Shown here in pieces: positions 32,560 to 37,528 of a stretch of 64,000 bases of DNA. The stretch is taken from positions 248,001 through 312,000 of the forward strand of contig JAFUDT010000004.1 in NCBI GenBank assembly GCA_017464285.1, read 5' to 3'. How positions within the stretch are numbered: position 1 is the first letter of the stretch; the number at the start of each line of letters is the position of its first letter. A program made the translations under genes and the position numbers. Origin of the DNA: Bacteroidales bacterium (lineage in GTDB: Bacteria; Bacteroidota; Bacteroidia; Bacteroidales; UBA1402). The notes beneath the pieces are model-generated. The model was not told where the DNA came from. It did no database searches and worked only from the letters and a program-made list of their open reading frames with translations.

Positions 32560-34473
32560 CTATTCTCCTATGTAATAACTCAGATGGGGCGGAATGTTGT
32601 AGGCGACATTCTGCCAGACGAGGCCCAAGCGGTAAACCGGGTCTTGCAGCAGTGTGACCAACCGGTAAGGACTGGGAATGGTGGTGCTGTAAATGCGCAG
32701 CTCCCGGTTGTCGCGGGTACGGAAAATGACTTCCTCACGCCAGTCGCCCCACAGATCGGCGCTCAGTGCGGGCGTGGACTTGCTGCCGTTGTTCGAGACG
32801 CATCCGTCGGCCCGGAAAATCTCTTCCAGCTGTTCGTCCTGCCAGTTGTATTTGAAGATCTGATTGCGGTCGAGCAGCTCACGTTGCAGGTCTCCGTCCC
32901 ACCAGATACCGAAATTGCAGGAGCGGGGATTCCTGTCGGAAATCTTCTCCCCACGGCAGGTGTACAGTCCGCTGATACCGCCGCCGAGTACCCAGCACTC
33001 GGCTCCACGATAGCGGGGGTCGATGTCGAAGGCGGCTACCCGGCCGGGGCCTTGGGCTTTCCTTTCTTTGGATACAGCCACACTGTCGGTGGGGACATTC
33101 CAGTAGATTTCGCCTGTGCCGGCGTGGCGGAAATTCATGCCGTAGGCCCCGACGGGTTCCTGAGAATTGAACACTTCCAGACCGGGACGGTCCGGATCCA
33201 GGTCGCTGACATGCATGGCATCGGCATGACCGATGCCAGTAGAGTAGAGCCCCCGGCCGTCATTATTGACGACCATATTGCCGTAAATGATTTCATCGCA
33301 ACCGTCCCCGTCCACGTCCGCCACACTGAGATTGTGGTTGCCGTTGCCTCGGAAGACGCGGTTCTCAGGATGCAGAGGATCGTCGCTGTCGAAAGTCCAG
33401 ACAGGCACCAGCCGGCCGTCCTGAAAATTCCAGGCGGCCAGCACGGTACGGGTATAGTAGCCACGGCACATGACCAGACTCGGCCGTTTCCCGTCCAGGT
33501 AGGCTACACAGGCCAGGTAGCGGTCGGAACGGTTGCCTTTGCCGTCACCCCAGATGGCCTGCAGTTCCTCGGTGGTGGGTCGGATCTTGTCTGGGTGACG
33601 CGGGGGATTGTAGGGAACAGTGGCCAATGCCTTGCCACTGGCTCCGTCGAAGACAGTCAGATATTCAGGCCCGCTCAGAATATGGCCTTGGTAAGGCGGC
33701 TCCAGCTCTCTCCAGTCGGCCTCGGGATCGCCGATAACCCCGCCTTGTCCGTCTATAGTGCCGTCTGCCGTCTTGCAGGCCACTTCGGCACGGCCGTCCC
33801 CGTCCAGGTCGTAAACCATGAATTGGGTATAGTGCGCCCCTTCACGGATGTTTTTCCCCAAGTCGATACGCCAGAGCATCGTGCCGTCCAGCCGATAGGC
33901 TTCCAGTTTGGTCTGGCCCGTGATACCGTTATGGGAGTTGTCGCGCGGCATCATCTCCTGTTTGACGATAATCTCAAACTGTCCGTCACCGGTCAGGTCG
34001 GCTACCGAACAGTCGCCCGGAGTATGGCCGGGCAACGTCTGCAATGGAATGGAAATATAGTTCAGTCCGCTACGGCCGGCCGGCAGTGTATAACAGCTGC
34101 CGGGCTCTATATCTTCCGACTGCGGGCTGGCAGGCACAGGGCGCTTGTGGGCACTCACGTAGTAGGTGACTGTCCGGGAGGCATCATACTCAAGATCGGT
34201 AAAGTTGGTGCCGTCTTTCAACGGACGGTCGTTGAGTCTGACAAAGCGACCGTCCTCGTATTTGTACACATCAAAGGCCAGTCGGTCGTCGTCACTGCAA
34301 AGCATGCGCCAGGAGAGGAAAGCTTCACGGTCGCTGACAGCCGTTGCATAGAGTCCTCTGCCCAGCATTTCGGCCTGACGGGGTGACTGCGGCCTGATCT
34401 GGCGGGTGGCTGTGTCTTGGCAACTGCTGCCAAGACACAGCAGTATCAACGGAAACAGTTTCAGGGGATTCAT
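32560..34473 (-). CDS. Rhamnogalacturonan lyase, PL11 family, lipoprotein
   Basis: 637 residues. The signal ends LGSSC (lipobox-like). An N-terminal beta-sandwich (about 30-140) contains GRGLYATAVSDREAFLSWRML. The eight-bladed propeller has repeated Asp-rich calcium loops: SVADLTGDGQFEIIVKQ, MVYDLDGDGRAEVACKTADGT, VADVDGDGCDEIIYGNMVV, STPALSADLWGDWREEVIFRT. These match YesW/YesX-type PL11 enzymes, which cut the rhamnose-galacturonate backbone of pectin RG-I by beta-elimination. It lies 38 bp downstream of the corrinoid methyltransferase fusion gene, in the same orientation. Confidence 0.93.
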   Translation of the reverse strand: MNPLKLFPLILLCLGSSCQDTATRQIRPQSPRQAEMLGRGLYATAVSDREAFLSWRMLCSDDDRLAFDVYKYEDGRFVRLNDRPLKDGTNFTDLEYDASRTVTYYVSAHKRPVPASPQSEDIEPGSCYTLPAGRSGLNYISIPLQTLPGHTPGDCSVADLTGDGQFEIIVKQEMMPRDNSHNGITGQTKLEAYRLDGTMLWRIDLGKNIREGAHYTQFMVYDLDGDGRAEVACKTADGTIDGQGGVIGDPEADWRELEPPYQGHILSGPEYLTVFDGASGKALATVPYNPPRHPDKIRPTTEELQAIWGDGKGNRSDRYLACVAYLDGKRPSLVMCRGYYTRTVLAAWNFQDGRLVPVWTFDSDDPLHPENRVFRGNGNHNLSVADVDGDGCDEIIYGNMVVNNDGRGLYSTGIGHADAMHVSDLDPDRPGLEVFNSQEPVGAYGMNFRHAGTGEIYWNVPTDSVAVSKERKAQGPGRVAAFDIDPRYRGAECWVLGGGISGLYTCRGEKISDRNPRSCNFGIWWDGDLQRELLDRNQIFKYNWQDEQLEEIFRADGCVSNNGSKSTPALSADLWGDWREEVIFRTRDNRELRIYSTTIPSPYRLVTLLQDPVYRLGLVWQNVAYNIPPHLSYYIGE

Positions 34474-34511: not shown

Positions 34512-37418
34512 TTATTTGCCGAGCAGCCGACGGGCGAGATCCACGGCACTGTTGGCATTGTCGCTGTAGCCGTCTGCCCCTATCTTGTCGGCAAACTGCT
34601 GGCTCAGGGGGGCTCCGCCGATCATGATCTTGACCTTGTCCCGAAGCCCGGCTTCTTTGACAGCCTCGATGACTTCAGCCATATAGTCCATGGTGGTAGT
34701 GAGCAGAGCACTGATGGCCAGGATGTCGGCTTGGTTCTCTTTGACTGCCTCGACGAATTTCTCCTTAGGAACGTCGATGCCGATGTTGATGACTTCAAAA
34801 CCACAGCCTTCAAGCATGGAGGCAACCAGGTTCTTGCCGATGTCATGCAGGTCGCCTTTGACTGTCCCGATGACGACTTTGCCCAGGGATTCCACCTGAT
34901 GGCCGACCATCAGGGGCTTGAGCAGCTGCATGGCTCCCTTCATGGCGCGTCCGGCCATCAGAAGCTGGGGAACGAAGACCTTGCCGTCCTGGAACTGACG
35001 GCCTATCTCGCTCATGGCCCGGATCATCTGGCCGTTGATGAGCGTCTGCGGCTCGATGCCGGCATCCATGGCCGCTTGTGTGGCAGCCTGGGCCTCGGGT
35101 AACTTCCCTTTCAGTATGGCGGTAAAGAGTGCGTCGTCATCTGAGGTGACCTGGCCGCTTTTCGGACTGGTCTCGGCCCGGGATCCTGTATCATCGGTCC
35201 GGGGTGCTTTTTCTTCGGACTCGGGGGCCTTGTCGACCTGGGTTGCCGTTTCCTCCTCTACGCCCTGCGGACCGGCCGGCTGGCTTGAAACCGCTGCGCC
35301 GGCAGCCTGTCTGGAGGGGCGATGCGGGCTCAGCCAGATATCATCGTCGGTCTTCACCAATTTGGCAATCTCGCGGATATGGGTGTCGTCCGTGCCGCAG
35401 CAGCCGCCGATGATATTGACCACATGGTCTTCGATGAGCGGCCAAACGACCCGCTGCATCATTTTGGGCGTCTGGCTGTACTTCCCGTCCTTGTCGGGCA
35501 GACCGGCATTGGGGAAGGCAATGATGCGGAAAGGGACTTCGGCGGAGAGACGGCGCAGGAAGGGCAGCATCATCTCGGCTCCCAGCGAGCAGTTCAGGCC
35601 GACACAGGTGACTGGTTCTCCTTCGAGAGACTTCATATAGGCGAGCAGGTCTTGTCCGAGCATGTTGAACCCTTTGGGATCCTTCATGGTGAAGCTCATG
35701 ATGACAGGCACTTCACGTCCGGTTTTTTTCATCATGGCCTTGGCGGCTTCCAAAGCGATGCCGGCATTGGCCGTGTCGAAAATGGTCTCGACGAGCAGGG
35801 CGTCCACGCCACCGTCAATCAGGGCAAGTATCTGCTCTTCGTAGGCGGTCTGCAATACAAGAGGACTAATCTCCTGCAGGCTGACACATTTGGCTGTCGG
35901 ACCGATCCCGCCGGCGACATAGACTGGTCGGTCGGCTGCATACAGACCGACAGCAGCGCGGGCGATGACAGCAGCGGAAATATTGATTTCACGAGCTTTG
36001 GTCTCCATGTGGAAGCCTTGCAGGGAAATGCGCTGTGCATTGAAGGTATTGGTCGTGATGATATCGGCGCCTGCCTCGATGAAGCGGCGATGGATGTCGG
36101 CCACGACGGCCGGCTGCGTCAGGCAGAGCAGATCGTTGCATCCTTTCAGGTCGGTACTGTTGTCGCGGTACTGTGGCCCGCGGTAGTCGGCTTCGCCCAG
36201 ATGATATTGCTGTATGGTCGTGCCGGTGGCTCCGTCCAGGACGAGAATCCTTTTTTCCATAGCCCGGGTCAGGCTCTCCCGGTTTGTCGGGGCAGGGCGC
36301 TCTATCTTGATGACCGGCTGGTCATGGTGACACTGGCAGCTGTTTTTGGGCCGGTATTCTTCAACGATTTTCATGGCTTGCTCGATTTCCTGTTCGTTGT
36401 GGAAGTTCATTTCGAGATGGACACCGTCCGGTCCGACGGTATCCAGCAGCGGTTTGATCTCGTCCACTTCGACCCAGCAGGCCATCAGGCTCTTGCCTCC
36501 GGCAAGGATCTTCTTGTAAAGATCGTACCATTTGGGCGAACCGCCCTGAGGCTCGCCCACGCCGGGCGTCCACTGGATGGCGTTGAGCTCTTCGATTTCG
36601 AGCAGGGCCGGCAGATGACGCATGGCTCCCACTCCGTCGAGATGATAGAGCGTGTAGGGGATCTTCCGGCATTGTTCCCGGATGTAGGGCTGGACAAAAC
36701 GCCGGTAGTCTTCTTCGGAAATCATGGTGGAAATGTCGCACTGGAGTTTGCTCATCTTGCCCGGGGCCCAGGACGAGAAATAGCAGAAAGCCATTTCGTC
36801 TCCTTCCCGGATGATTTCGTAAAGCTCGTCGAAGACACGGAAATAGATGTCATTGATGCGTTGCAGCTGCTCTTCCACCCATTCGGGCTGTATGAGCAGA
36901 TCTTCCAGAATCTTGTCTGTGCCTTTCAGGGCGGCCAGTATGTCAAGGCCTTCCATCAGGTCGGGCATACCTACGTAGTAGTGGCCCTGAGCCTTCTGTT
37001 TGCAGGCATTGAGCAGGTCTTTGTGCAGTTTCCAGTTGGGGTGGTTCTCGTCAAATCTGACCTGGCCGTCGAAATGGGGATCGGGATGAATCCAGATAGT
37101 GTCTTCGCCACCTTCCAGCACACCTCCCAGGATGGCTGCCAGCGAACCTGGCCCGAGCTGGGTGTTGGCTACCGGCAGGATGTCCGCTTTGAGACTGCTG
37201 TGGGCGACGTACCAGTCAAGATAATCGGCTCTCCACTGCGGGTCGAACCATTTCTGGTTCAGGTCGGCAGGACCGGCCGGCCGGGGAATGTCGGCATGGG
37301 GCGTGACCCCCTGCTGAAGATGCTCCCACATGTTCAGAATGATACCTTTATGGTTCCACCAGTCGATATATCGTTGTTTGGTAGTCTCAAGATCGGGCTT
37401 CCACATTTTTGTTGTCAT
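34512..37418 (-). CDS. Three-module corrinoid methyltransferase: URO-D-like, homocysteine S-methyltransferase, B12-binding
   Basis: 968 residues from the ATG at 37418 (MTTKMWKPDLE). Residues 1-358 belong to the uroporphyrinogen-decarboxylase superfamily, the fold of corrinoid methyltransferases such as MtaA; YHLDGVGAMRHLPALLEIEELNAIQWTPG (257-285) marks a subgroup where HLDG replaces the usual His-x-Cys zinc site. Residues of about 388-690 are a homocysteine S-methyltransferase domain with LDGATGTTIQ and zinc cysteines C610 (LNCSLGA) and C673-C674 (GGCCGT). An acidic Pro/Ala/Ser linker spans 700-760. Residues 762-968 are the helical cap and B12 domain with GDLHDIGKN (cobalt-ligand His858) and IGGAPLS. 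MetH's folate and SAM-reactivation modules are absent. Likely role: methyl transfer from a non-folate donor through cobalamin to homocysteine. The donor is unknown. Cytoplasmic. Confidence 0.88.
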   Translation of the reverse strand: MTTKMWKPDLETTKQRYIDWWNHKGIILNMWEHLQQGVTPHADIPRPAGPADLNQKWFDPQWRADYLDWYVAHSSLKADILPVANTQLGPGSLAAILGGVLEGGEDTIWIHPDPHFDGQVRFDENHPNWKLHKDLLNACKQKAQGHYYVGMPDLMEGLDILAALKGTDKILEDLLIQPEWVEEQLQRINDIYFRVFDELYEIIREGDEMAFCYFSSWAPGKMSKLQCDISTMISEEDYRRFVQPYIREQCRKIPYTLYHLDGVGAMRHLPALLEIEELNAIQWTPGVGEPQGGSPKWYDLYKKILAGGKSLMACWVEVDEIKPLLDTVGPDGVHLEMNFHNEQEIEQAMKIVEEYRPKNSCQCHHDQPVIKIERPAPTNRESLTRAMEKRILVLDGATGTTIQQYHLGEADYRGPQYRDNSTDLKGCNDLLCLTQPAVVADIHRRFIEAGADIITTNTFNAQRISLQGFHMETKAREINISAAVIARAAVGLYAADRPVYVAGGIGPTAKCVSLQEISPLVLQTAYEEQILALIDGGVDALLVETIFDTANAGIALEAAKAMMKKTGREVPVIMSFTMKDPKGFNMLGQDLLAYMKSLEGEPVTCVGLNCSLGAEMMLPFLRRLSAEVPFRIIAFPNAGLPDKDGKYSQTPKMMQRVVWPLIEDHVVNIIGGCCGTDDTHIREIAKLVKTDDDIWLSPHRPSRQAAGAAVSSQPAGPQGVEEETATQVDKAPESEEKAPRTDDTGSRAETSPKSGQVTSDDDALFTAILKGKLPEAQAATQAAMDAGIEPQTLINGQMIRAMSEIGRQFQDGKVFVPQLLMAGRAMKGAMQLLKPLMVGHQVESLGKVVIGTVKGDLHDIGKNLVASMLEGCGFEVINIGIDVPKEKFVEAVKENQADILAISALLTTTMDYMAEVIEAVKEAGLRDKVKIMIGGAPLSQQFADKIGADGYSDNANSAVDLARRLLGK

Positions 37419-37528
37419 GTACTTGTCGGTTTGTTTTTCGGTAATGGATGATGACCAGGGTCTGTCTGACAGACGGCTACAAAAATACTTCTTTTCTCTG
37501 AATATCCTTCGGTGAGTGTCCATGTTTA

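Follow-up and report, generated by a model that had tools for sequence, protein, structure and literature searches.

In the present study we analysed a 64,000-nucleotide stretch of DNA (the window) from a Bacteroidales bacterium (contig JAFUDT010000004.1) and found that one gene on its reverse strand encodes three domains in a single chain, i.e. a methyltransferase domain of the uroporphyrinogen decarboxylase (URO-D) fold, a homocysteine S-methyltransferase module and a corrinoid module (34512..37418 (-); 968 amino acids, ATG at 37418, stop at 34512-34514). We consider it fairly probable that this fusion is a self-contained, putative corrinoid O-demethylase and methionine synthase which uses a methylated pectin sugar. 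The narrower proposal, that methionine is made on one chain, anaerobically and free of folate from the 2-O-methyl-D-xylose of rhamnogalacturonan-II (RG-II), and that the protein is a member of a wider family of corrinoid sugar O-demethylases, is tentative and falls a little short of being probable.

The open reading frame is uninterrupted and comprises 1007 amino acids between stops; an alternative upstream ATG at 37523 would give a protein of 1003 amino acids. Residues 1-358 (36345..37418 (-)) form the URO-D-fold domain, which we propose to be the O-demethylase (methyl donor) module based on an AlphaFold model and structural alignment. The homocysteine module follows at residues 388-690 (35349..36257 (-)), as judged by residue conservation and by PF02574 (S-methyl_trans), whose entire profile covers residues 392-688 in the Pfam search (E=1e-78). 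The corrinoid module (34521..35135 (-)) consists of a helical cap matched by PF02607 (B12-binding_2; residues 762-834, E=4e-19) and a Rossmann part matched by PF02310 (B12-binding; residues 846-959, E=3e-29). It is joined to the homocysteine module by a low-complexity linker (residues 691-761; 35136..35348 (-)) that is unconserved, with 17-30% identity inside the genus, and disordered, with pLDDT <50 at residues 705-759 of the full-length model. The Pfam search gave no Pterin_bind match, and a pterin-binding (methyl-folate) domain is absent from the chain. An earlier note on this DNA had described the same three-domain architecture, the lack of folate and S-adenosylmethionine-activation parts and complete zinc-type homocysteine and B12 sites. 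The architecture was confirmed by the Pfam matches and the model of the N-terminal domain, the missing parts were borne out by the Pfam search, and the residues in question (C610, C673, C674 and H858) are present and invariant.

The zinc ligand C610 (35589..35591 (-)) is shared by 65 fusions and ten MetH proteins, the ligands C673 and C674 lie in an invariant GGCCGT stretch (35397..35402 (-)), and all three cysteines were kept in 65 of 65 fused homocysteine modules. In addition, of the residues that do not vary at the homocysteine site of the ten MetH proteins, most were retained by the 65 fusions. A pseudogene or decaying homocysteine module was rejected, as the catalytic residues were intact in all 65. 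In the tree, the fused modules split from MetH with a support of 100; since they group apart from MetH, a single origin of the fusion, as opposed to independent fusion events, may be considered. A Prevotella fusion (L089:6788-9697) showed a very long homocysteine-module branch with 1.19 changes per column and retained the zinc cysteines.

In the corrinoid module, the cobalt-ligating His858 (34845..34847 (-)) stands in a D-x-H-x-x-G motif and is invariant in the fusion alignment. Together, the B12-binding_2 cap and the Rossmann part with this motif correspond to the definition of a methyltransferase corrinoid protein of the MtgC/MttC kind. The module also scored higher against the free methyltransferase corrinoid protein 1Y80 (199 bits); the E. 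coli MetH structure 1BMT gave 107 bits. On the corresponding family models, the fusion scored 209.6 bits for TIGR02370, slightly below the cut-off of 215.3, and 487 bits for the NCBIfam model metH (TIGR02082), which has a cut-off of 1011.

The N-terminal domain was assigned from a structural model, because sequence and profile searches gave no usable match: the Pfam URO-D match of the 358 residues (E=0.025) lay under the curated cut-off, and a PDB sequence search with the domain and its profile returned no match. The AlphaFold model (pLDDT 78.6, pTM 0.80) was most similar to the methylcobalamin:coenzyme M (CoM) methyltransferase of M. mazei (4AY7; Z 16.5 over 300 residues, 4.2 Å). Uroporphyrinogen decarboxylases came next with Z 14-16.5, after which the scores dropped to Z <=12.4, and Foldseek gave a match with E 3e-6. 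A predicted URO-D-type barrel fold is thus supported. For the full-length fusion the pTM was 0.54 and the placement of the domains relative to each other is unreliable.

The earlier note had further likened the N-terminal domain to methyltransferase 2 (MT2) of methanogens, a likeness that did not hold at the active site. The H-x-C...C zinc-thiol motif of CoM-type MT2 proteins (MtaA/MtbA) was not found in the fused domain, which instead carries an invariant H259-L260-D261 motif (36636..36644 (-)) at the H-x-C place according to sequence comparison. A separate MT2-like URO-D protein of 336 amino acids, encoded in the gene clusters described below, does carry H230, C232 and C312 in an H-x-C...C arrangement, and its best PDB match was a methylcobalamin:coenzyme M methyltransferase. 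As the motif is missing from the fused domain and present in its neighbour, we prefer to regard the fused domain as a candidate donor-side (MT I) enzyme. In a profile-profile comparison of the fused domain with the MT2-like proteins the alignments were shallow (Neff 1.3). O-demethylases of the URO-D superfamily that act on phenyl methyl ethers, OdmB and VdmB, have been described (PMC10418091).

The fusion was present in five of the six species of the genus, four further species having the same three-domain open reading frame with 69-82% identity. Purifying selection acts on all three domains: compared with genome G002, dN/dS was ~0.04 (URO-D domain), ~0.14 (homocysteine module) and ~0.09 (corrinoid module). 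The URO-D domain was the most conserved of the three: it shared 94% identity with its G002 counterpart, whereas the homocysteine module reached 81%, and in 41 relatives the identity of the URO-D domain was 77-95%. A scan of named genomes with the URO-D domain showed that the fusion is widely found in gut and rumen Bacteroidota. It yielded 274 related places, of which the best 80 were examined. Nearly all hosts among these 80 were gut or rumen Bacteroidales. The full URO-D/homocysteine/corrinoid architecture occurred in at least 59 of the loci, for the most part in Prevotella and further Bacteroidales of gut or rumen. Prevotella fusions were ~80% identical to the window protein in the URO-D domain, ~70% in the corrinoid module and ~47% in the homocysteine module. 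About 15 of the best 80 loci combined URO-D and corrinoid domains without a homocysteine module, and six were cut at contig ends. The shorter form has 600 amino acids in Phocaeicola vulgatus ATCC 8482 (L062:9992-11791) and is also found in Bacteroides faecis, at L106 and L076 and in about a dozen more loci. A misassembly of separate genes, which the earlier note had named as a possible error, was excluded by conservation in the genus, by purifying selection and by the recurrence of the fusion in dozens of genomes that were assembled independently, some of them from isolates. One contig labelled as a metagenome-assembled genome (MAG) of Paenibacillus sp. (L074, JAMPHR010000004.1) carried the entire Bacteroidales-type cluster and is most likely a mis-assigned MAG.

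The methyl donor, left unnamed by the earlier note, could be narrowed to a methylated pectin sugar from the gene context. Among 39 relative loci with adequate flanks, the fusion was accompanied by a glycoside hydrolase of family 31 (GH31) in 31, a sodium:solute symporter in 31, a family 141 hydrolase (GH141) in 29, a MetH-type activation protein in 25 and the MT2-like URO-D protein in 25. All five partners occurred together in 21 loci, in variable gene order. The cluster GH141 matched BT_1002 over its full length (5MQP, E=4e-178). BT1002 is endo-acting and frees 2-O-methyl-D-xylose-alpha-1,3-L-fucose from side chain A of RG-II (PMC10154630). Because a GH141 of this type lies beside the fusion, 2-O-methyl-D-xylose or its disaccharide with fucose is proposed as the most likely donor. 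Some clusters contained genes whose sequences point to an L-fucose isomerase, a fucose permease or a non-phosphorylating (oxidative) fucose route, and such genes would be in keeping with fucose as the co-product. Genes of the rhamnosidase families GH78 and GH106 were also found in some clusters.

The cluster GH31 showed no evident signal peptide, and YicI was its nearest relative among characterised enzymes. YicI is an alpha-xylosidase. The minus-1 site of the cluster enzymes (L157:8273-10483 (-) and L062:7740-9983 (+)) reads D-T-G-W versus D-C-F-W in YicI, which may reflect an unusual sugar. PDB entry 5F7C, named an alpha-glucosidase, is closely related to the cluster GH31.

In the window itself, the neighbour of the fusion is a family 11 rhamnogalacturonan lyase (PL11; 32560..34473 (-), PF21348 with E=5e-203), located 38 bp downstream. 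A PL11 homolog directly follows the fusion in L040, L042 and L043, and in L061 a homolog with 85% identity is its neighbour. Since the lyase is conserved next to the fusion in the genus, the link to pectin stays. A GH31 (65% identical) and a symporter are adjacent to each other elsewhere in the window genome. In sister lineages, URO-D homologs that stand alone (58-62% identical) are flanked by GH31 and this symporter. Such an arrangement suggests that the URO-D gene has been relocated and has acquired its partners.

The role as methionine synthase is consistent with the genome content. In the genomes of the window genus we found no MetE, no MetH-type pterin module and no homocysteine module besides that of the fusion; PF01717 (Meth_synt_2) matched neither in the genus nor in the fusion. 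The earlier note had advised looking for metH, and no recognisable MetH was detected in the genus. With neither MetH nor MetE recognisable there, the fusion is the only methionine-synthase candidate of the genus. Sister genera have a full MetH (~1229 amino acids) or a short one (783 amino acids). Of 31 fusion genomes examined, 23 also had a MetH-sized protein and eight had the fusion as the sole PF02574 protein; MetE was absent from all eight, two of which are isolates (Xylanibacter caecicola and Marseilla massiliensis). A separate MetH-sized protein was present in all 12 examined genomes with the URO-D/corrinoid form. This pattern fits a working homocysteine module that is able to replace MetH, while species without MetH and MetE may instead be methionine auxotrophs. 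In G001, a 96% complete genome of the same genus, neither the fusion nor MetH or MetE was found and the MT2-like and activation-protein genes remain; this organism is predicted to be a methionine auxotroph or to have another synthase.

The earlier note had expected that cob(II)alamin would have to be rescued by a separate route. A candidate for it is the stand-alone MetH-type activation protein (PF02965, Met_synt_B12), which was found in every genome of the genus and, as mentioned above, is encoded beside the fusion in relatives. These proteins keep the R-x-S-P-G-Y-C and S-V-S-G motifs. The RamA-like reactivase that the earlier note had also proposed to look for was not found: PF14574 (RamA/RACo) had no match in the genus, and this type of reactivation was rejected. 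The activation proteins (L062:13694-14389 (-) and homologs) have an extra conserved C-x2-C-x4-C near the C-terminus, unexpected for a MetH activation domain, which may hold a metal or an iron-sulfur cluster and serve in electron delivery.

In the mechanism we propose, GH141 would release methyl-xylosyl-fucose in the periplasm, the sodium symporter would bring it into the cell and GH31 would cleave it there. The URO-D domain would bind 2-O-methyl-D-xylose of RG-II side chain A, free or as 2-O-methyl-xylosyl-fucose, and the corrinoid domain at the C-terminus would take up the ether methyl of the sugar on its Co(I). The resulting methyl-Co(III) would then methylate zinc-bound homocysteine in the middle domain, yielding methionine, and the demethylated sugar would join ordinary sugar catabolism. 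Cob(II)alamin arising by mishap would be rescued in trans by the activation protein. Which sugar is used, in which direction the methyl moves and what the activation protein does are inferred, and so is, from the gene context, the path from GH141 to demethylation.

Several observations weigh against this proposal. The identity of the substrate is read from the gene neighbourhood only, and the compared loci, being related to one another, are not independent samples. In the close clade of the window, the fusion lies away from the GH31/symporter pair and beside the PL11 lyase, and the association with GH141 is weak. The clearest GH141 of the window genome (L161:8020-9924 (-)), whose assembly is 83.5% complete, has no aspartate equivalent to the proposed nucleophile of BT1002 and reads N-Y-S-C versus M-Y-D in BT1002-like proteins; G001 keeps the aspartate. 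Moreover, G001 retains GH31 and the symporter but not the fusion. The sugar cleaved by GH31 appears uncertain given how its minus-1 site differs from that of YicI, and the MT2-like neighbour would have no clear role if the fusion itself methylates homocysteine.

Among the alternatives, a split folate-fed synthase is the strongest, although we regard it as rather unlikely. Here a separate pterin-binding methyltransferase would load the corrinoid and the URO-D domain would be an optional second input, comparable to the proposal for MtgBCDE in Ruegeria. In genomes G000 and G002, a pterin-binding protein that stands alone is encoded next to EtfBA and a corrinoid/MT2 cluster, marine MtgCDE links demethylation and methionine synthesis via one corrinoid protein (PMC12478193), and the genomes in which the fusion is the only synthase could not make methionine without methylated sugar unless they had another methyl source. 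However, no such pterin protein was found in G001, G003 and G005, two of which are only 70% complete, and in relatives the fusion is surrounded by genes for the breakdown of glycans and not by those of folate metabolism. The independence from methyl-folate claimed in the earlier note is accordingly plausible in vivo but unproven, as the methyltransferase-like pterin protein of G000 and G002 possibly feeds the same cobalamin.

A different donor with the same chemistry, such as 2-O-methyl-L-fucose of RG-II chain B, a 4-O-methyl-uronic acid or a methyl ester, is unlikely and slightly less favoured than a folate-fed enzyme. It would suit the operon partner in the window, which is the PL11 lyase and not GH141, as well as the unusual minus-1 site of GH31 and the rhamnosidase-family genes of some clusters; yet 29 of 39 loci have a GH141 of the BT1002 type, which speaks for methyl-xylosyl-fucose, and the conservation of the fused URO-D domain across lineages suits a single substrate. 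A truncated MetH that is fed by free methylcobalamin or another corrinoid protein, and in which the URO-D domain is degenerate or has a structural role, is very improbable, since the absent MT2 zinc cysteines and the barely detectable Pfam match are opposed by the highest conservation and lowest dN/dS of the three domains and by the URO-D/corrinoid form in P. vulgatus and others, which is independent of the homocysteine module.

The proposed O-demethylase and methionine synthase resembles several known systems, having a MetH-like acceptor half, a donor half like that of phenolic O-demethylases and a logic like that of MtgBCDE. With MetH (TIGR02082) it shares the zinc and substrate residues of the homocysteine module, a His-on corrinoid and a path from donor via cobalamin to homocysteine in one chain. 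Unlike MetH, it has no pterin and activation domains, a URO-D-fold domain in front and a corrinoid module of the free type. The core methionine synthases MesA-D also lack a folate domain; however, they belong to the MetE superfamily (COG0620), whereas the fusion has a PF02574 acceptor with a built-in donor module (PMC7857596). Judged by its sequence, the fusion belongs to neither the MetH nor the MesA-D families. The OdmB/VdmB systems, which comprise an MT I with a corrinoid protein, an MT II and an activase, likewise combine a URO-D-fold donor enzyme and a corrinoid on a methyl ether (PMC10418091). In contrast, the proposed sugar ether is not aromatic and donor, carrier and acceptor are on one chain; the acceptor would be homocysteine instead of tetrahydrofolate, and a MetH-type activation protein would replace RACo/RamA. 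In Ruegeria pomeroyi, the MtgBCDE system joins demethylation to the synthesis of methionine via one corrinoid carrier and has a PF02574 module, but it consists of four separate proteins with an MttB-family donor protein acting on glycine betaine, occurs in aerobic marine bacteria and involves folate (PMC12478193). Type 1 mlp clusters were rejected as a known name for the system, since they have Ram/RACE activases and proposed methyl-sulfur or methyl-selenium substrates and a term search of the main text describing them gave no mention of Bacteroidetes, Prevotella, sugar or a fusion (PMC10418091). Finally, the P450 demethylation of 6-O-methyl-D-galactose in marine Flavobacteriia also removes an O-methyl group from a polysaccharide sugar near glycoside hydrolases; this route needs oxygen and gives formaldehyde, whereas the route via the fusion would be oxygen-free with the methyl group retained (PMC10033563). 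In the literature searched, we found neither a described system with a URO-D donor, a PF02574 acceptor and a corrinoid carrier on one chain nor corrinoid sugar O-demethylation in Bacteroidota.

RG-II occurs in all plant foods, and no account of what becomes of its methylated sugars was found in the literature searched. For the step that removes the methyl group after known enzymes have released 2-O-methyl-xylosyl-fucose, no description was found in the literature searched, and for sugar ethers only the oxygen-dependent P450 route. Gut anaerobes have no such oxygen-requiring route. If the proposal is true, corrinoid salvage of the sugar methyl into methionine would close this gap and tie B12 supply to pectin use, and in some species pectin sugars would be a direct methyl source of methionine. 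The fusion would then be a methionine synthase that works without folate and has the homocysteine module of MetH as its basis, and it would account for life without MetH and MetE in several isolates and uncultured species. The URO-D/corrinoid forms of P. vulgatus and B. faecis put the question within tractable strains.

Besides the fusion, the same genome carries another corrinoid system (G000:C19:123000-130000; L034:4800-11700), which we also observed in L044 and L045. It comprises a URO-D-type protein of 375 amino acids (PF01208, E=5e-9), an MFS transporter, a corrinoid protein of 225 amino acids, an MT2-like URO-D protein and a stand-alone MetH-type activation protein, and is adjoined by a stand-alone pterin-binding protein and apparent EtfB/EtfA. 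This putative system is possibly another demethylase. Further sugar-linked corrinoid loci (L046:2441-10075 and L037:2738-6571) encode a weakly URO-D-like protein of 359-372 amino acids, accompanied in L046 by a corrinoid protein and a protein of ~900 amino acids with a weakly GH20b-like N-terminus.

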